This document shows positions 17,521-26,814 of a DNA stretch of 64,000 bases, in pieces. The stretch spans positions 434,001 to 498,000 of the forward strand of contig NZ_CP019699.1 in the NCBI RefSeq assembly GCF_002005165.1, in the 5' to 3' direction. Within the stretch, counting starts at the first letter, position 1. Each line of letters begins with the position of its first letter. The notes below the pieces were generated by a model. It was not told where the DNA came from. It saw only the letters and a program-made list of their open reading frames with translations, and ran no database searches. This stretch comes from Novibacillus thermophilus (GTDB lineage: Bacteria > Bacillota > Bacilli > Thermoactinomycetales > Novibacillaceae). A program made the position numbers and the translations under genes.

Positions 17521-17556
17521 GGATTACAATTTTATCCAGTGAATGGAGATATTGCT

Positions 17557-18345
17557 ATGACTGAAGAAAAATTAGTAAACGCCGTCGTTCGGTCGTTAAA
17601 CATTCTTGAAACTTTAGCTGATGAAGAAGAAGGGCTCGGGATTACCGAGATTAGTCAAAGGTTGGGACTGGCAAAGAGTACGACCCACAGGTTGATGATG
17701 ACGCTACATCATAAAGGATATGTTGTGCAAGATGAGAAGACAGAGAATTACAAACTCGGACTAAAAATACTATCCCTTTATTCTTCTTTGCTTGAAAACT
17801 TAAGTTTAAGGAAAGTCGCCCACAAACACATGGAAGAGCTCGCAAACAAAGTGGGAGAAACTGTCCATCTCGTGATACGCGACGATTGTGAAGTCGTCTA
17901 TATCGACAAAGTTGAAAGCTCTAAAAATACGATTCGGGTGGCTTCACAAATTGGAAAGAGAGCGTATATGCATTCTACTGCTGTTGGAAAAGTACTGCTT
18001 TCAGAACTGAGCTGGGCTGAAGTCGAACATATCATTCGGGAAAAAGGGTTGCCGAGGTTTACAAAAAATACGATCACTGAACCAGGAGAACTGAAGCGCC
18101 ACCTGCAAAATATTAAAAATAACGGGTGGGCGATAGATAATGTTGAAAACGAAGAAGGCATTCGATGCATCGCTGCACCTATTCGGGACAGATCAGGAAA
18201 AATTGTAGCTGCTATTAGCATTTCCGGTCCGGTTTTTAGAGTGACGGAGGAACGGATTCAATATGATTTAATACCGTCGATCACCAGAACGATTAAATTA
18301 ATGTCGAATGAGTTGGGGTACAATATTGGCAAAATTCGCGCTTAA
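17557..18345 (+). CDS. IclR-family transcriptional regulator
   Basis: 262 residues from the ATG at 17557 (GGAG at eight bases; the ATG at 17539 lacks a site). N-terminal winged helix (about 5-65) with ITEISQRLGLAKSTTHRLM and wing GYVVQDEKTENYKLG. The C-terminal IclR effector domain has VHLVIRDDCEVVYIDKV, MHSTAVGKVLLSEL, and the EEGIRCIAAPIRDRSGKIVAAISISGP run around residues 210-240. It marks the start of the AT-richer segment and most likely controls the ridA operon from which an insertion sequence now separates it. A KdgR-like role on kdgK-kdgA is an alternative. Confidence 0.88.
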   Translation: MTEEKLVNAVVRSLNILETLADEEEGLGITEISQRLGLAKSTTHRLMMTLHHKGYVVQDEKTENYKLGLKILSLYSSLLENLSLRKVAHKHMEELANKVGETVHLVIRDDCEVVYIDKVESSKNTIRVASQIGKRAYMHSTAVGKVLLSELSWAEVEHIIREKGLPRFTKNTITEPGELKRHLQNIKNNGWAIDNVENEEGIRCIAAPIRDRSGKIVAAISISGPVFRVTEERIQYDLIPSITRTIKLMSNELGYNIGKIRA

Positions 18346-18646: not shown

Positions 18647-19990
18647 TTAAAAGCCAGACAACTCTTTTAATGCTTTGTAAACTGGTATGTTAGCTTTTCT
18701 TTTTAGATATAGAACATTGTCTCTAGTGGCTTCACCAATTGTGCTCGTAACTTTTTCTTTATAGTATCTTGGTGGGTTCTTTTCCACCTTTGTTTCAGTC
18801 CATTTTTCAATCCTGCCAAATAGTGTTTTTAAGGTCAATTTATCCAAGTAAGCTACCAAACCAGTGAACATGGCACTTACACCTTTATCCACCCAACTAC
18901 GGCCATTTTTAAGTCTTTTGGCAAATACACTCATGGTTCCTTCTGCACTACCCATCGGACGCATTCCTGTTGTATCTATACCCTGTTCTTTAAGCCAGTT
19001 ACGATAATCTCCCAAGGCTTCTGGATATTTCTCTAATTGGCGAATAAATGCTTCTAGACGTTCCTCTTGCTCATCATCCTCTAGCGTTCCGACTGCACTG
19101 TTAAGCTCTGTAAGCAATTTCTCATAATCATATGATGCAAGCGCCTTACGAATTGGACGATAACGTGGGTGATGACGGAACAAACTTCGAATCTCCCGTG
19201 CCACATGGAAACGATCAAGCGAAAAGAATGCACGATCTTTGAAATAGTCACGACAAGTTGTAATCCAATTTGCACCATCTCCATTTATTACCAACTTATG
19301 AAAGGTTGGATCATACTCAAAGTTTTCGATGAGAAAGTCCTCAAACGCCTCCCAAAATGGCTGGTTCCCTTCATGTACGAAATGGCGTTTATTCTTCAGT
19401 CTTACTCGTTTCCCATTGACTTCCCAGCCTTGATGAACTGCGGCTATTTTCTCTTCTTTTCCCTTTTTTCGTTTACCTTGACGTTTTACAAACAAACCAT
19501 CGACCTCTACAAATAATACAGGTTGATGTACATGCTCACGCTTTTTTGGAATACTCGAAACTTGTAATAAGTGTTGACGGATTGCCTCATGACTAATAAC
19601 CCGATAGCCTAAAAGGGTTTCTAACGTACTGGCTGCTTTTCGATAGGAAGGTCCCTGAACAGCTAATTCAATAGCTACCTCCTCAATCAATGGGCTAAAA
19701 GAACCTGCATCCTCAAACTCTAAATAACGATCAAGGAGAAAAACATATTCCCCTGTCTCCCGGTCACGGTAATAATTACGATTTAATTCAATCTCTCCGA
19801 AGAGACTAGTTATATGATATTTTCTTTTATCAATGAGTCGATAGCGTTTTTTATCTCGTTCTTCTGCAATCTGCTTGTCCATGTCCTCTAATAGTGTTTT
19901 CATGACCTTTGAGAAGGTTTCCTGTAATTGCCTCCAAACTAATTGCTCAATCTGTTTTAAATTTGGATATACTGTGTTATTCTTTTGCAT
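18647..19990 (-). CDS. ISLre2-family transposase (UPF0236)
   Basis: 447 residues, full length for the family. Recognisable features are the N-terminal KKRYRLIDKRKYHITSLFGE block, FVEVDGLFVKRQGKRKKGKE, LVINGDGANWITTCRDYF with an acidic residue, FSLDRFHVAREIRSLF, and the C-terminal MGSAEGTMSVFAKRLKNGRSW. No internal stop is present, so it may be active. The ATG at 19990 has AAAGGAG nine bases upstream, and that ribosome site lies inside an inverted repeat with the end of the element. Confidence 0.9.
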   Translation of the reverse strand: MQKNNTVYPNLKQIEQLVWRQLQETFSKVMKTLLEDMDKQIAEERDKKRYRLIDKRKYHITSLFGEIELNRNYYRDRETGEYVFLLDRYLEFEDAGSFSPLIEEVAIELAVQGPSYRKAASTLETLLGYRVISHEAIRQHLLQVSSIPKKREHVHQPVLFVEVDGLFVKRQGKRKKGKEEKIAAVHQGWEVNGKRVRLKNKRHFVHEGNQPFWEAFEDFLIENFEYDPTFHKLVINGDGANWITTCRDYFKDRAFFSLDRFHVAREIRSLFRHHPRYRPIRKALASYDYEKLLTELNSAVGTLEDDEQEERLEAFIRQLEKYPEALGDYRNWLKEQGIDTTGMRPMGSAEGTMSVFAKRLKNGRSWVDKGVSAMFTGLVAYLDKLTLKTLFGRIEKWTETKVEKNPPRYYKEKVTSTIGEATRDNVLYLKRKANIPVYKALKELSGF

Positions 19991-20102: not shown

Positions 20103-20150
20103 CCCCCTCATTTGTTGAGCGTTCTAACGTTCCCTCAACAAATGAGGGGG
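20103..20150. repeat. Perfect 17-bp inverted repeat (large hairpin)
   Basis: CCCCCTCATTTGTTGAG (20103-20119) and its exact complement CTCAACAAATGAGGGGG (20134-20150) with a 14-base loop that itself contains CGTT-CT-AACG. It lies just outside the ISLre2 right end. The following TTAAATTTTG is not a clean T-run. It could be a bidirectional terminator or a remnant of another mobile element. Confidence 0.75.
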
Positions 20151-20198: not shown

Positions 20199-20226
20199 TT
20201 GACATATTTAGAAAATAGTATACAAT
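20199..20226 (+). promoter_or_regulatory. Promoter of the ridA operon
   Basis: TTGACA (20199-20204), 16-base spacer and TACAAT (20221-20226). The spacer overlaps a sequence, CATATTTAGAAAATA (20203-20217), matching 11 of 15 positions of the CodY consensus. Confidence 0.8.
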
Positions 20227-20410: not shown

Positions 20411-20875
20411 ATGGGAAGTATTGAAGAAAGGTTAAATGCAATGGGTATCACGTTGCCTTCGGCACCAAAGCCAGCAGCTGTATACATACCGGTTCAACAA
20501 ACTGGTAACCTCTTATTTACCTCGGGACAAGATTGTAGAAAAGATGGGAAGCTGATTTATGAAGGAAAAGTTGGACGAGATCTCACAATTGAACAGGGCC
20601 AGGAAGCCGCTCGGCAAACGATCATAAATTGCTTAGCGGTTTTAAAAAAGCATATAGGCGATTTAGACAAAATAACAAAAATCGTAAAAGTGTTAGGTTT
20701 TGTTAATAGTGCTCCGGGTTTTGTTGAACAGCCGTACGTTATAAATGGGGCTTCGGAATTTCTTGAAAAGGTTTTTGGCGAAAAAGGTAAACATGCTCGT
20801 TCTGCTGTAGCCGCAAATGAATTACCCTTTAATACACCAGTTGAAATTGAGATGATTGTCGAATTAGATGATTAA
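20411..20875 (+). CDS. RidA family (YjgF/YER057c/UK114) enamine/imine deaminase-like protein
   Basis: 154 residues from the ATG at 20411 (AAGGAG eight bases upstream). It has LLFTSGQDCRKDGKLIYEGKVG and TIEQGQEAARQTIINCLAVLK near the N-terminus and HARSAVAANELPFNTPVEIEM at the end, where canonical RidA has the catalytic Arg in a similar ARSAV segment. It is longer than RidA proper (about 125-130), closer to the YjgH/Rid2-like subgroups. Family members hydrolyse reactive enamines such as 2-aminoacrylate. First gene of an operon with a symporter and D-amino-acid enzymes, where such intermediates are expected. Confidence 0.88.
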   Translation: MGSIEERLNAMGITLPSAPKPAAVYIPVQQTGNLLFTSGQDCRKDGKLIYEGKVGRDLTIEQGQEAARQTIINCLAVLKKHIGDLDKITKIVKVLGFVNSAPGFVEQPYVINGASEFLEKVFGEKGKHARSAVAANELPFNTPVEIEMIVELDD

Positions 20876-20925
20876 CCACTCGTTGCAGTTTTTTTCAGCA
20901 TGTTTACAAAGGGAGCGGAGAAGTT

Positions 20926-22389
20926 ATGGGAAATCCAATCGTTTACTTGGCAGTTTTCCTCGTATTTATTGGATTGATGTTGGTTATAGGGATCCTCGTC
21001 TCTCGACACATTAAAAGCGGTGAAGATTTTTTGATGGGAGGAAGGGGATTATCTTCATTTCTTTTAATCGGAACTACTGTAGCTACTCTTGTAGGTACTG
21101 GTTCAAGTATGGGGGCGGTTCAATATGCCTTTACAAATGGTTGGGCAGGAGCCCTATACGGGATAGGAGGAGCTATTGGTATCTTTGTTTTGCTCCTACT
21201 TTTTGGGGATGTCAGAAGATTTAGTTTCATGACATATTCCGAAGAATTAAGCTATTACTTTGGAGCGAGTAAATTAATTAAAGGATTAACCTCGGTTCTG
21301 TTATATATCGCGTCTATTGGTTGGTTAGGAGCACATATTTTAGGTGGAAGTTTATATTTATCGTGGATAACAGGGATCGATCCTGTTACAGCTAAAATGT
21401 TGACAGCTATCGGGTTCGCTGGTTTCACCATTATCGGGGGTTATTTGTCGGTTGTTATCACTGACACGATTCAAGGGTTCATTTTGTTCTTTGGATTTAT
21501 TTTTCTAACATTGCTATCCCTCGTTAAAATCGGTGGATATTCTGTCATATCTGAAAATCTGCCCAATGAAATGGTATCTTTCTTGGGAACACAACAGATC
21601 GGATGGATTCCGGCAATATCGTTAATTGTTGTAATAGCGGTTGGTGTTTTGGCGACGCCTTCTTACCGCCAACGAATATATTCGAGTAAAGATGTCTCAA
21701 CGGTCAAAAAAGGTTTTATTGTTTCGGGTTTTCTCTTTGCAATCTTTTCGATATTTCCATCTATCTCAGGTATGGCTGCAAGAATTCTAAATCCCGATTT
21801 AGAGTCAGGGTATGCATTCCCTTACTTGGCAACGGAAGTTTTTCCGCTATGGATCGGTGCCATTATTCTGATTTCGGGATTAAGCGCTACGATGTCTTCT
21901 GGAAGTTCTGATTTTATTGCAGCCGTCACTATACTGCTAAGGGATGTTTACCAAGTACTTACAGGAAAACTTCCCCGAAAAGAACATATAGTGAAATACT
22001 CGCGAATTTCTTTAGTGATAACTATTGTTTTGGCTCTTATCTTGACAATCGGTTCGAGCAACATTATTGATTATATTTCTAACTTTATTTCAACGGTCAT
22101 GTCTGGTCTGTTTGTTGCTTCAGTTTTGGGAAAATTTTGGTCGAGGGCCAATTGGCAAGGGGGACTCGCCAGTATGATTGGCGGCTCTTTAACATCCACC
22201 ATCATCTTGATGAACGATTCGCTTCTTGCTTATTGGGGGAACCCAATTTTGCCGTCATTGGCGGGGGCGTTTATATTTGGAATACTAGTCAGTTTAATAA
22301 CACCAAAAAATAACGTTACTAAGCAAGAAGCCTTAAGAAAGTTAAGTGAGGAAAGAGCGGTTATGGATACCGGTACGGAGAATATTTAG
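20926..22389 (+). CDS. Sodium:solute symporter (SSS family)
   Basis: 487 residues with about 13 hydrophobic helices. SSS features are the first helix followed by KSGEDFLMGGRGL, TTVATLVGTGSSMGAVQYAF and GGYLSVVITDTIQGFILFFG. It imports a small solute with Na+. Given the operon, N-acyl-D-amino acids or D-amino acids are likely substrates, but this is inference. It is 50 bases after ridA with AGGGAGCGGAG upstream, and 19 bases before the next gene. Confidence 0.9.
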   Translation: MGNPIVYLAVFLVFIGLMLVIGILVSRHIKSGEDFLMGGRGLSSFLLIGTTVATLVGTGSSMGAVQYAFTNGWAGALYGIGGAIGIFVLLLLFGDVRRFSFMTYSEELSYYFGASKLIKGLTSVLLYIASIGWLGAHILGGSLYLSWITGIDPVTAKMLTAIGFAGFTIIGGYLSVVITDTIQGFILFFGFIFLTLLSLVKIGGYSVISENLPNEMVSFLGTQQIGWIPAISLIVVIAVGVLATPSYRQRIYSSKDVSTVKKGFIVSGFLFAIFSIFPSISGMAARILNPDLESGYAFPYLATEVFPLWIGAIILISGLSATMSSGSSDFIAAVTILLRDVYQVLTGKLPRKEHIVKYSRISLVITIVLALILTIGSSNIIDYISNFISTVMSGLFVASVLGKFWSRANWQGGLASMIGGSLTSTIILMNDSLLAYWGNPILPSLAGAFIFGILVSLITPKNNVTKQEALRKLSEERAVMDTGTENI

Positions 22390-22408
22390 CTATAAGGGGA
22401 ACGTAAAT

Positions 22409-23500
22409 ATGTTTGAAACACCATCCATTATCGTTGACGAAGACAAGGTTCGGAAAAATATAAAGAAGATGGCGGAAATTGCTAAAAAAAGAGGGGTTCG
22501 ATTACGCCCTCATGTAAAAACACACAAGATACCCAAAATTGCAAAGATGCAAATAGAAGCCGGTGCTGTCGGGATCACAGTTGCAAAGACAACTGAAGCA
22601 GAAGTGATGGCATCAGCAGGAATTAATGATATATTTGTTGCCTACCCGATCGTTACCGATGCCAAAATTGATAGAGTATTGGAACTGAGTAAGAAGATTC
22701 GTCTAATTGTAGGTGTTGACAGTATTGAAGGAGCAAGAAAATTATCTGATAAGGCAAAAATGAACAATCAGCATATTGAAGTAAGGTTGGAAGTGGATAC
22801 AGGTTTAAGGAGAACAGGTGTCAAGTATGAGAAAGCAGTAGACCTGGCCAAAGAGATTTCTATTTTAGACAATGTTAATTTAACCGGTATTTATACATAT
22901 AAAGGGGCTTTGTTTAAAGGAAGGCCGACATTGGACCTGTATAAGGCTGGATTAGAAGAAGGAGAATTAATGGCCGCACTAGCAAAGCGACTGAGAAAAG
23001 ACGGGCTTGAAATTAAAGATGTTAGTGGTGGGTCCACACCGACTGCTGAAAACGTTGCACAAGTGGAGGGAATCACAGAGATTCGTCCCGGAACTTATGT
23101 TTTTAATGACAGAATGCAAATGGGATATAAGGTTTGTCGTTTTGAAGATTGTGCGGCGAAGGTAGTGGCGACAGTAGTAAGCATACCGTCAGAAGATCTA
23201 CTAGTCATTGATGGAGGAAGTAAAACGTTTGCCACAGATGTACAACCGAATTCTGAACCTTTAAAATTGGACGGTTTTGGAGAATGTGCAAACCATCATG
23301 AAGGGGTGTTAGAGAGGTTAACAGAAGAGCACGGGATGGTTAGAGTTCCACCGGGACAAAGCTTCCAAGTTGGTGATACAATCGAGATCATTCCAAATCA
23401 TATTTGCAGCACGATTAATCTCCATGACGCTGTTTATTTTAAAAAGGAAGACGGTTCTTTAGAAAAGCTGGCTGTTTCCGCCCGTGGAAAACTATATTAA
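22409..23500 (+). CDS. D-threonine aldolase/D-serine dehydratase-like PLP enzyme
   Basis: Fold-type III PLP protein of 363 residues from the ATG at 22409 (AGGGG at about eight bases). The PLP lysine is in LRPHVKTHKIPKIAK near residue 37; the C-terminal domain has NHICSTINLHD, whose His-x-Cys is the zinc ligand pair of eukaryotic-type D-serine dehydratase. These enzymes either cleave D-threonine to glycine and acetaldehyde or dehydrate D-serine through 2-aminoacrylate. Lies between the symporter and the deacylase. Confidence 0.85.
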   Translation: MFETPSIIVDEDKVRKNIKKMAEIAKKRGVRLRPHVKTHKIPKIAKMQIEAGAVGITVAKTTEAEVMASAGINDIFVAYPIVTDAKIDRVLELSKKIRLIVGVDSIEGARKLSDKAKMNNQHIEVRLEVDTGLRRTGVKYEKAVDLAKEISILDNVNLTGIYTYKGALFKGRPTLDLYKAGLEEGELMAALAKRLRKDGLEIKDVSGGSTPTAENVAQVEGITEIRPGTYVFNDRMQMGYKVCRFEDCAAKVVATVVSIPSEDLLVIDGGSKTFATDVQPNSEPLKLDGFGECANHHEGVLERLTEEHGMVRVPPGQSFQVGDTIEIIPNHICSTINLHDAVYFKKEDGSLEKLAVSARGKLY

Positions 23501-23558
23501 AATGGAAAATTTTATTATGGGAAGATGTGATTTTGTTCTAGTCAGGGAGCGAAATTGA

Positions 23559-25166
23559 ATGCTTGATTACGTATTAAAAAACGGCCGAATTGTTGATGGG
23601 ACTGGAAACCCATGGTTTATCGGAGATATTGCGATTAAAGACGGTAGGATCGTGCAAGTTGGTAGAGTTGAAACGGAAAGCAAAGAAGAAATTGATGTTG
23701 GACAACATATCATTTCTCCGGGCTTTATCGATGGTCATTGCCATTCTGATTTAATGATTTTGGATCATCCAGACTCCCGTATAAAATTGGAACAAGGTGT
23801 TACTACAGAAGTAGTAGGAAATTGCGGCTTGGCTCCGGCCCCTTTTTTTCCGCAATTCGGAAACCAACTCCAGGCGTATGTTGAACCAGTATTAGGTAAG
23901 ACAAACCGGGAATGGAATTGGCACACTGTGGAAGATTATATGAACGTTTTGGCATCAGTTAACCCTTCTGAAAATGTATCGACCTATGTCGCACACGGTG
24001 CGTTGAGAATCGCAGTCATGGGCTTTGAAAAAAGACCTGCCAGACCTGCTGAGGTAGAAAAAATGAAGGTGTTACTTGAAGACGGTTTAAAGGCCGGGGC
24101 GATTGGTTTGTCGATTGGATTGCTTTACGCTCCTGGTAGTTATACAAGCAAGGAGGAGCTTGCAGAACTTTGCACTGTTCTGTCGAAATATAACGGATTG
24201 CTTGCTACACATGTTCGTGGTGAAGGAAACAATTTAGTTCCATCAATACAAGAAGTTCTCTGGATTGCTGAAAAGAGTGGAGTCCAACTGCATATCAGCC
24301 ATCTGAAAGCTGCCGGTAAACGTAATTGGGGTAAGGTGTTAGATGCGATTGAAATGATTGAAGACGCAAGGAACAGGGGGATGGATGTAACCTGTGACGT
24401 TTATCCTTATTCAGCTGGTTCTACCATGTTGACCACACTGTTACCCCCTTGGTCACTGGAAGGAGGAATACAAAGAACAATAGAAAGACTAAAAGATAAA
24501 GTGACAAGAGAAGAAATTAAAAATGAGTTAAACCGTGAACAAGAGGACTGGGATAATCTCGTTGCATCTACAGGTTGGGAAAGCGTATTTGTCTCTTCAG
24601 TCCAAACTAGTAAAAATAAAGTGTTTGAAGGAAAGAATATCGCGGATATCAGTCGATCAACCGGAAAGGATCCTATTGACCAAATGATGGATTTACTAAT
24701 TGAGGAGTTCGGCAATGTTTCCATCGTTTTTTTCCACATGTCGGACACTGACTTGAAGTCTGTCATAAAATATGATAAATCGTTAATTGCTTCAGACAGT
24801 CTCACTTGCTCAACGGGAAAACCACATCCCAGGCTGTTTGGAACTTTCCCCAGAATTTTTTCTAAATACGTTCGTGAAGAAAAAATTCTCAAGTTGGAAG
24901 ATGCCGTAAGAAAGATGACATCTTTTCCTGCCAAACGGTTTAATCTCGGCAAACGCGGACTTTTAGTTCCTGGTTATATAGCAGACATTACTGTTTTTGA
25001 CGAAGACCGCATTGCGGATAGGGCCACCTATGAACATCCTACTCAGTATCCGGATGGGATATCGTACGTATTTGTCAATGGCACCAAAACTAAAGAATTC
25101 AATACCTATACGAAAAGAAGAAGTGGTAAGGTTGTATTTTCTGAAACGATTTGTGTGGATGGCTGA
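23559..25166 (+). CDS. N-acyl-D-amino-acid deacylase (D-aminoacylase)
   Basis: Amidohydrolase of 535 residues. Metal-site motifs are SPGFIDGHCHSDL (HxH near residue 60) and VVGNCGLAPAP with the D-aminoacylase-type Cys; LHISHLKAAGKRNWGK supplies a further His. The C-terminal part KRGLLVPGYIADITVFDEDRI closes the beta-sandwich. It hydrolyses N-acyl-D-amino acids to a fatty or acetic acid and the D-amino acid. Probably the last gene of the ridA operon; kdgK begins 57 bases later with clearly higher GC. Confidence 0.9.
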   Translation: MLDYVLKNGRIVDGTGNPWFIGDIAIKDGRIVQVGRVETESKEEIDVGQHIISPGFIDGHCHSDLMILDHPDSRIKLEQGVTTEVVGNCGLAPAPFFPQFGNQLQAYVEPVLGKTNREWNWHTVEDYMNVLASVNPSENVSTYVAHGALRIAVMGFEKRPARPAEVEKMKVLLEDGLKAGAIGLSIGLLYAPGSYTSKEELAELCTVLSKYNGLLATHVRGEGNNLVPSIQEVLWIAEKSGVQLHISHLKAAGKRNWGKVLDAIEMIEDARNRGMDVTCDVYPYSAGSTMLTTLLPPWSLEGGIQRTIERLKDKVTREEIKNELNREQEDWDNLVASTGWESVFVSSVQTSKNKVFEGKNIADISRSTGKDPIDQMMDLLIEEFGNVSIVFFHMSDTDLKSVIKYDKSLIASDSLTCSTGKPHPRLFGTFPRIFSKYVREEKILKLEDAVRKMTSFPAKRFNLGKRGLLVPGYIADITVFDEDRIADRATYEHPTQYPDGISYVFVNGTKTKEFNTYTKRRSGKVVFSETICVDG

Positions 25167-25222: not shown

Positions 25223-26172
25223 ATGGACGTCGTGACGCTAGGAGAATCGATGGTATTGCTCACCCCGACAACAACAGGCCCGCTCCGCTACGCCCACACC
25301 TTTTCCCGCGGACTGGGAGGCGCCGAAAGTAACGTCGCCATCGGACTGGCCCGACTGGGAAAGAAAGCGGGCTGGATGAGTAGAGTGGGAAATGATGAAT
25401 TGGGCGAATACGTCGTCTCCACCATTCGCGGCGAAGGAGTCGATACGTCGGCTGTAAAGCGCGACCCCCACGCGCCGACGGGGCTGTACTTGAAAGAACG
25501 GCGCACGCCCGATCAACTCCGCGTGTATTACTACCGCCGGGGTTCGGCGGCCAGTCGCCTCATGCCGGGCGATTTGGACGAAGCGTACATGAGACAGGCG
25601 AACGTATTACACTTGACCGGCATTACTCCCTCCTTGAGCGAATCGTGCCGGGAAGCGGTGGAGCACGCTTTTGCCATCGCCCTCCGTCATCAGCTCACCG
25701 TGTCATTCGACCCGAACATTCGCCTGAAATTGTGGACTCTCGAAGAGGCTGGTCCCGTCTTGCGCCGCTTCATTTCCCAGTCGGACATTGTGCTGCCCGG
25801 GTTAGAAGAAGGGAAGTGGCTGTACAGTGAAACGGATCCGGAACGTTTGGCGGAGAAGATACTGGACACCGGCCCCCATGTGTGCGTAGTGAAACTGGGA
25901 GCCCGGGGGCGTACTTTGCGACGAGGGACGGGGAGAAAGGGTTTGTCCCCGGGCTGAAATTTCGCGATGTCGTCGACCCGGTGGGAGCGGGGGACGGGTT
26001 TGCGGCGGGGTTGCTGGCCGGGTACGTGGAAGGAAAAACGTGGCGAGAAGCGGTTGAGATGGGGAACAAAGTCGGGGGGATCGTCACCCAATTTGCAGGG
26101 GACATGGAAGGATTGCCGACAAAGGAAGAGTTGGAAGCTGTAGACGCGGAACGAGAAGATGTCATGCGATAG
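25223..26172 (+). pseudogene. kdgK: 2-keto-3-deoxygluconate kinase, frameshifted
   Basis: PfkB-family sugar kinase in two frames. The first (25223-25957) runs from MDVVTLGESMVLLTP through GGAESNVAIGLARLGKKAG and VSFDPNIRLKLW to CVVKLGARG. The second carries AYFATRDGEKGFVPG and the signature DVVDPVGAGDGFAAGLLAGY with the catalytic Asp. They join if one G is added to the GGGGG at 25905-25909, giving about 316 residues, the normal length. So a single base is missing, as a real mutation or a homopolymer error. With kdgA, 12 bases downstream, it would phosphorylate and cleave KDG from pectin and hexuronates. Confidence 0.85.
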
Positions 26173-26184
26173 GAGGTCAGAATC

Positions 26185-26814
26185 GTGAAGCAGAGATTAC
26201 TCCGTCAGTTGTACGAACAGCGCATCGTCGCCATCATTCGCGGCATCACCGGGGAAGGGTTGGACAGTCTCGTCGGCACCTTGGTGGAGAGCGGCATTCG
26301 CATCATGGAGGTGACGGTCGACACCCCCGGGGTGTACGACAAAATCCAGCGAATCAAAGACGAGTACGGCGACGAAGTGGCCGTAGGAGCGGGGACGGTG
26401 TTGGACAGCGAAACAGCGCGCACCGCCATCAGTGCGGGAGCGGAGTTTCTCGTATCCCCGTCGCTCAATGTGGACGTGATCAAAACAGCGAAGCGTTACG
26501 GGAAGGCGGTCTTTCCCGGATGTATGACGCCGACAGAGATCGTGCAGGCGTTTGAGGCTGGGGCCGATGTGATCAAAGTGTTTCCGGCCAGTGTGGTAGG
26601 GCCGCGGTATTTCCGCGAGTTGTCGGGGCCGTTGGGCCACATTCCGCTCATGCCCACCGGCGGGGTCAACCTAGACAACGCCTGGGACTATGTGGAGGCC
26701 GGTGCAGCTGCTGTCGGCCTTGGAAGCGCCCTGGTCGGGCGCGGCGGACGGCAGGTGGACCTGGCGGACGTGAAAGAGAGAGCCCAGGCGTTTCGTGGAT
26801 TGGTGAGGAACTAA
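26185..26814 (+). CDS. kdgA: 2-dehydro-3-deoxyphosphogluconate (KDPG/KHG) aldolase
   Basis: Splits KDPG to pyruvate and glyceraldehyde 3-phosphate. 209 residues, GTG start after AGGAGGT. Family features: IVAIIRGITGEG at the N-terminus, EVTVDTPG, GAGTVLDSETARTAISAGA, the Schiff-base Lys in DVIKVFPASVVGP and the phosphate loop MPTGGVNLDNA. Its stop (TAA 26812-26814) overlaps the stop of the convergent AEC gene with no terminator between. Confidence 0.93.
   Translation: MKQRLLRQLYEQRIVAIIRGITGEGLDSLVGTLVESGIRIMEVTVDTPGVYDKIQRIKDEYGDEVAVGAGTVLDSETARTAISAGAEFLVSPSLNVDVIKTAKRYGKAVFPGCMTPTEIVQAFEAGADVIKVFPASVVGPRYFRELSGPLGHIPLMPTGGVNLDNAWDYVEAGAAAVGLGSALVGRGGRQVDLADVKERAQAFRGLVRN

Follow-up and report, generated by a model that had tools for sequence, protein, structure and literature searches.

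Catabolism of N-acetyl-D-glucosaminate (GlcNAc1A) has been described for the ong cluster of Pseudoalteromonas prydzensis ACAM 620 (Jiang et al., 2022, PMC9537276). In this route a deacetylase yields glucosaminate, a pyridoxal phosphate (PLP) enzyme converts glucosaminate to 2-keto-3-deoxygluconate (KDG), and KdgK converts KDG to 2-keto-3-deoxy-6-phosphogluconate (KDPG); kdgA is present as well in the ong clusters of Vibrio, Klebsiella and Serratia (PMC9537276). OngD, a Rid protein, is essential in P. prydzensis, its role having been left open, and the oxidative chitin pathway has been described in Gammaproteobacteria and in one betaproteobacterium (PMC9537276). In this work we analyzed a stretch of 64,000 nucleotides of Novibacillus thermophilus (NZ_CP019699.1, 434,001-498,000; hereafter the window, whose positions serve as coordinates throughout), in which genes for a Rid protein, a sodium:solute symporter (SSS), a fold-III PLP enzyme, an N-acyl-D-amino-acid deacylase family protein, a KDG kinase and a KDPG aldolase are arranged in succession. 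Our findings suggest that this putative operon probably takes up and degrades GlcNAc1A or a very close 2-acetamido-aldonate, and it looks like a parallel Bacillota version of the ong-type pathway.

Symporter orthology and predicted enzymes

Comparison of the window symporter with a plasmid collection gave ten matches at 44-54% identity (Vibrio 54%, Klebsiella 49%, Pseudoalteromonas 44-47%), all others being at or below 28%, and four of the symporter loci were opened (L153, L154, L159 and a Klebsiella variant, L158). The loci of Pseudoalteromonas NC201 and CF6-2 and of Vibrio THAF191d correspond to the ong cluster, with a PLP deaminase, an RpiR regulator, a D-aminoacylase, RidA, the symporter, a sugar kinase and a GH20 protein, to which the Vibrio locus adds Eda. 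The Klebsiella 176 locus contains the deaminase, a deacylase (unannotated, and detected by tblastn), RidA, the symporter, a 2-keto-3-deoxygalactonate (KDGal) kinase, a 2-keto-3-deoxy-6-phosphogalactonate (KDPGal) aldolase and RpiR. The window and Vibrio symporters are 53% identical, a closeness comparable to that between the Pseudoalteromonas and Vibrio symporters themselves (50-57%), and judged by sequence the window protein is an orthologue of OngIT, the GlcNAc1A importer. In P. prydzensis, deletion of ongIT abolished growth on GlcNAc1A, with growth on N-acetylglucosamine, glucosamine and N-acetylmuramic acid being kept (PMC9537276). No close symporter was found in the phage records searched.

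Across 42 genomes of the same order, three symporter orthologues were present, in every case beside DgaE/DgaF-type enzymes. In one member of the order (G294), which has an AA10 lytic polysaccharide monooxygenase (LPMO), the symporter is 82% identical to that of the window and lies (L163:8732-18902) upstream of a regulator, a cellobiose/chitobiose-type phosphotransferase system (PTS), MupG, an EF_0837 deacetylase, a DgaE-family ammonia lyase and a DgaF aldolase, an arrangement that gives independent support for a glucosaminate-type substrate. As an observation on that genome itself, the G294 locus might represent a phosphorylated route for oxidised chitobiose.

These results bear on a preliminary description of the locus, in which the first four genes were read as a self-contained pathway for N-acyl-D-serine or N-acyl-D-threonine. 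The four genes are indeed all present and consecutive on the forward strand, with the coordinates then reported, and the proposed logic of uptake, deacylation, PLP-dependent beta-elimination and clearing of the enamine/imine by Rid agrees with the gene anatomy. The proposed substrate, in contrast, is unsupported, since the symporter and those of the ong clusters are orthologues, and since another orthologue adjoins D-glucosaminate-6-phosphate genes. The set is also not self-contained: the KDG kinase and KDPG aldolase genes, overlooked at that time together with an IclR-family regulator and an ISLre2 transposase, come next on the same strand, and these enzymes are needless for the degradation of D-serine or D-threonine. 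Finally, a set that had been thought not to be described as one system is in essence already known as the ong cluster (PMC9537276).

In the route that we infer, the substrate and each of the reactions are proposals, and so are the function of Rid, the regulation and the co-transcription. The symporter would bring in GlcNAc1A with Na+, and the D-aminoacylase-family enzyme would split it into acetate and D-glucosaminate. Elimination of the 3-hydroxyl by the zinc/PLP fold-III enzyme would then give an enamine/imine and, from it, KDG and ammonia, with the Rid1 protein accelerating imine hydrolysis and shielding other PLP enzymes. The PfkB kinase would convert KDG to KDPG, and the aldolase KDPG to pyruvate and glyceraldehyde-3-phosphate; the IclR protein is probably the regulator of the operon. 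GlcNAc1A is the final product when chitin is cleaved oxidatively, and the host would obtain it by scavenging.

The His-x-Cys zinc pair noted in the preliminary description for the PLP enzyme is present (PNHICST). In an alignment with solved relatives, D-threonine aldolases have His-x-Asp at this pair and D-threo-3-hydroxyaspartate dehydratases have His-x-Cys, as does the window enzyme, for which dehydration is therefore the more likely chemistry. The C2/C3 configuration of D-glucosaminate is D-threo. The enzyme is predicted to be a D-glucosaminate dehydratase (deaminating). It scores 118-146 bits against all of 3wqc, 3anu, 4v15 and BhcC (6qkb), none of them close, with D-threonine aldolase and D-threo-3-hydroxyaspartate dehydratase outscoring D-serine dehydratase. 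An assignment as BhcC (3-hydroxy-D-aspartate aldolase) was rejected, the NCBIfam equivalog giving 177 bits against a cut-off of 690.

The deacylase, predicted here to be an N-acetylglucosaminate deacetylase, has as its nearest solved relatives the D-aminoacylase 1m7j and the N-acyl-D-glutamate deacylase 3gip, followed by 9g5m and PpOngB (9kb1). Its aligned metal and catalytic residues are those of the D-aminoacylase family (HxH, Cys in GNCG, two His, and Asp in SDS), and its segment YPYSAGSTML aligns with YPYAASSSTLDLNQ of Pseudoalteromonas OngB. For the Rid protein the nearest solved structures are 3d01, PA0814 (9bk9), 2otm and ACIAD3089 (9bkb); PA0814 and ACIAD3089 belong to Rid1, the type assigned to the window protein, which in the alignment retains both imine-deaminase site residues, Arg and Glu.

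Recurrence of the set and layout of the putative operon

Gene content, families, symporter orthology and the recurrence of the set are read directly from the genomes. A scan of the genomes of 84,980 species with an alignment of PLP enzyme orthologues gave 80 named loci at 54-63% identity, mostly in Paenibacillus, but also in Bacillus relatives, Fictibacillus, Halobacillus, Alicyclobacillus, Thermoactinomycetes and Rubrobacter-type Actinobacteria; the controls were 33 loci whose PLP enzymes are relatives at or below 44% identity, and neighbourhoods were taken as 9 kb. A Rid protein of the window type was near the PLP orthologue in 70 of the 80 loci and in 5 of the 33 controls (Fisher p ~2e-13), and a deacylase in 61-63 of 80 against 3 of 33 (Fisher p ~2e-11); both accompany it in 57 loci. 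The loci are phylogenetically related, so the p-values overstate their independence, but the contrast is nonetheless large, and the PLP-deacylase-Rid arrangement is not due to chance. Sugar genes also stand beside this core, namely a CUT1-type ABC transporter (29/80) and a NagK-like kinase (7/80), and in Halobacillus the neighbours are uronate-to-KDG genes.

All seven functions occur together in members of other taxonomic orders, in Fictibacillus terranigra (IclR-PLP-deacylase-Rid-Eda-KdgK-SSS) and in Pseudalkalibacillus (KdgK-Eda-SSS-PLP-deacylase-Rid, with IclR divergent), and a third locus (L033) reads IclR-KdgK-Eda-(sugar-acid-dehydratase-like gene)-GntP-PLP-deacylase-Rid. The same genes being found in differing orders, the kinase and the aldolase appear to belong to the set. 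In a further group of loci (L092, L093, L116, L121, L124, L131, L133, L138, L140, L144, L146, L150 and L151), Rid follows the PLP orthologue and the deacylase is missing; some of them have a NagK-like kinase or a GH4-like gene, and the group may represent a version whose substrate comes without the acetyl group.

The features of the window locus are collected in Table 1. The gaps between the Rid, symporter, PLP enzyme and deacylase genes measure 50, 19 and 58 bp, with no strong terminators seen in them, and the gap between the deacylase and kinase genes is 56 bp. GGAAGGAG precedes the ATG of the Rid gene (20411), and the promoter match lies between this gene and the ISLre2 element. The ATG of the PLP enzyme gene is at 22409; the searches with this protein used 22406, one codon upstream. 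The IclR gene is separated from the operon by the ISLre2 transposase, and its product scores 214 bits with the KdgR model, below the model cut-off. Target-site and terminal repeats were looked for around the ISLre2 copy, with nothing clear. A 17-bp perfect inverted repeat (CCCCCTCATTTGTTGAG) in the interval between the insertion element and the Rid gene (20103-20150) may be a terminator or an operator.

Table 1. Features of the N. thermophilus locus, in window coordinates.
Feature	Position	Strand	Model or evidence
Rid protein, Rid1 type	20411-20875	+	PF14588/PF01042
SSS sodium:solute symporter	20926-22389	+	PF00474
Fold-III PLP enzyme	22409-23500	+	PF01168 + PF14031
N-acyl-D-amino-acid deacylase family metallohydrolase	23559-25166	+	PF07969
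PfkB-family KDG kinase, frame broken in assembly	25223-26172	+	KDG kinase models
KDPG/KHG aldolase (Eda family)	26185-26814	+	TIGR01182 above cut-off, PF01081
IclR-family regulator (KdgR/BhcR-like), candidate operon regulator	17539-18345	+	PF01614/PF09339
ISLre2-family transposase, no functional pathway part	18647-19990	-	NF033529 282 bits, above cut-off
Sigma-70-like promoter TTGACA-16-TACAAT, 11/12	20199-20226	+	consensus match only

The kinase and the aldolase have relatives elsewhere in the genome. As proteins, both are 75-79% identical to a pair near 770 kb of the contig, in a cluster (~760394-770824) that comprises a Rid protein (48%), an SDR protein, a DgaE-family PLP lyase, an N-acyl deacylase (36%), a CUT1-type ABC transporter, a ROK-type regulator, a KDG kinase and a KDPG aldolase. 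This cluster appears to encode a further amino-sugar-acid pathway with a similar logic, and the presence of the nearest paralogues within it was counted in favour of GlcNAc1A degradation. The aldolase gene is, in addition, 97% identical in DNA over 626 bases to a second copy (contig 513797-514435), located ~53 kb downstream and clustered with a galactonate dehydratase, which points to a recent duplication or gene conversion.

Points against GlcNAc1A and other explanations

Several observations weigh against a GlcNAc1A pathway. The PLP enzyme could not be identified as OngC, since despite the common superfamily and His-x-Cys pair the two are 23-26% identical, and the deacylase fails as OngB both on identity (~32%) and on residues, having Thr at the position of OngB Ser292 and a long insertion with no alignable Gln298. 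In PpOngB, Ser292 and Gln298 both matter, Thr is the D-aminoacylase state, and the S292T variant retains 1.3% of the efficiency (PMC12017989). The window Thr is D-aminoacylase-like in this respect; the other deacylase residues leave a preference for N-acyl-D-amino acids undecided. The Rid protein, being Rid1, differs in subfamily from the 128-residue RidA-type OngD. The kinase frame is broken near 25902, with frame 1 running up to 25957 and the similarity going on in frame 3; the break (25895-25910) adjoins a G run and may reflect a sequencing error or a real inactivation. At 25166/25223 the GC content passes from 40-42% in the four upstream genes to 59-61% in the kinase and aldolase genes, so that this pair has an origin of its own.

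A genome search for conservation, which the preliminary description had called for, upheld the PLP-deacylase-Rid core but not KdgK and Eda as its general companions, these being near in only 3 of the 80 loci and in 2-3 of the 33 controls; the argument rests on the symporter-type loci and on the three gene orders. Upstream of the PLP gene, 36 of the 80 loci carry a YheO-like regulator (PF08348 + PF13309; e.g., L128:8306-8962), unlike the IclR protein of the window. DauR-type regulators, which are of this YheO-like kind, are known from D-amino-acid metabolism. Lastly, no match to LPMO (PF03067) or GH20 (PF00728) was found in the host genome, and its sole GH18 is a LysM-GH18 protein with the look of a spore enzyme. 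Production of GlcNAc1A from chitin by the host itself was rejected on these grounds, so that other organisms would have to supply the sugar acid.

Some of these points would be accommodated by a pathway for N-acyl-D-serine/D-threonine, or for a wider range of N-acyl-D-amino acids, in which the deacylase would release D-serine or D-threonine for dehydration by the PLP enzyme, with Rid removing 2-aminoacrylate and the kinase and aldolase as unrelated neighbours. The D-aminoacylase-like residues and best-scoring solved relatives of the deacylase, the break in GC content, the usual lack of KdgK and Eda nearby and the YheO-type regulators all agree with this explanation, as does an Azospirillum set of deacylase, Rid and an alanine-racemase-fold protein with a dipeptide ABC transporter. 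We consider it unlikely, however, given the orthology of the symporter to OngIT, the G294 symporter beside DgaE/DgaF, the occurrence of KdgK and Eda within complete sets of other genera and orders, and the sugar transporters and NagK-like kinases that adjoin the core in other genera. Assays with D-serine and D-threonine alone would not be decisive, because OngC acts on both (PMC9537276).

Less probable again is that the same chemistry serves another 2-acetamido-aldonate (e.g., N-acetyl-D-galactosaminate, leading to KDGal) or an oxidised muropeptide sugar. The OngIT work in P. prydzensis concerns GlcNAc1A, and Jiang et al. place the Klebsiella loci among the GlcNAc1A clusters (PMC9537276), even if annotation assigns a KDGal kinase and a KDPGal aldolase to the Klebsiella symporter locus, the window kinase matches a KDG/KDGal kinase model (below its cut-off), and the near-identical aldolase copy lies close to galactonate dehydratase. 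An operon in decay and currently without function, as the broken kinase frame and the splitting off of the regulator by the insertion element might indicate, is very improbable, since neither the aldolase gene nor any of the four genes upstream is damaged, the genome has two further kinase paralogues (75-78% and 32-47% identical), both intact, a good promoter match stands between the element and the Rid gene, and the break beside the G run may be a sequencing error.

Comparison with described systems

The GlcNAc1A route proposed here likely arose when a transporter found across phyla was combined with enzymes that share their superfamilies with those of the ong cluster and come from different subfamilies. 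We hypothesize, with a confidence only a little above even, that Bacillota and some Actinobacteria possess an independently assembled GlcNAc1A pathway, which has its transporter in common with Gammaproteobacteria and whose deacetylase, dehydratase and Rid were each recruited from other subfamilies. If so, the pathway would also occur in a group of bacteria frequently found in soil and compost. A Rid protein would have been recruited twice, which would mean that the pathway requires removal of an imine and would bear on the role of OngD, a Rid partner from another subfamily offering a direct test of imine removal. The D-aminoacylase and D-serine dehydratase labels in many Paenibacillus and Bacillus genomes would also need correction. 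In the open-access literature no paper was found that deals with Bacillota using GlcNAc1A or with the cluster in Paenibacillus, nor any for 'D-glucosaminate dehydratase', which is weak evidence of absence in both cases.

Among the known systems, the ong cluster shares with the window an orthologous SSS importer, a deacetylase of the D-aminoacylase fold, a fold-III PLP deaminase, Rid and a KDG kinase, and the window aldolase (Eda) matches the kdgA of the Vibrio, Klebsiella and Serratia versions. It differs in that the window deacetylase, PLP enzyme and Rid come from other subfamilies, in having the RpiR repressor OngR instead of an IclR protein, and in its GH20 (OngA) and TonB receptor, both lacking in the window cluster, whose Gram-positive host is also without LPMO. 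The DgaE/DgaF route for D-glucosaminate-6-phosphate likewise leads from glucosaminate to central metabolites by an ammonia lyase and a KDPG aldolase, and the symporter orthologue adjoins such genes in G294; its substrate is phosphorylated, however, its PLP enzyme is SelA-like whereas that of the window is of fold III, and uptake is by a PTS. The D-aminoacylases of Alcaligenes (AfDam, 1m7j) and Bordetella (BbDam, 3gip) resemble the window deacylase in fold family, in metal ligands and in the Thr at the OngB Ser292 position, but the window protein has a different, longer insertion (TLLPPWSLEGG...) and operon partners that suggest a sugar acid. The fold-III enzymes D-threo-3-hydroxyaspartate dehydratase (3wqc), D-serine dehydratase (3anu), D-threonine aldolase (4v15) and BhcC (6qkb) belong to the same two-domain family as the window PLP enzyme, and the dehydratases among them have the His-x-Cys zinc pair in common with it.

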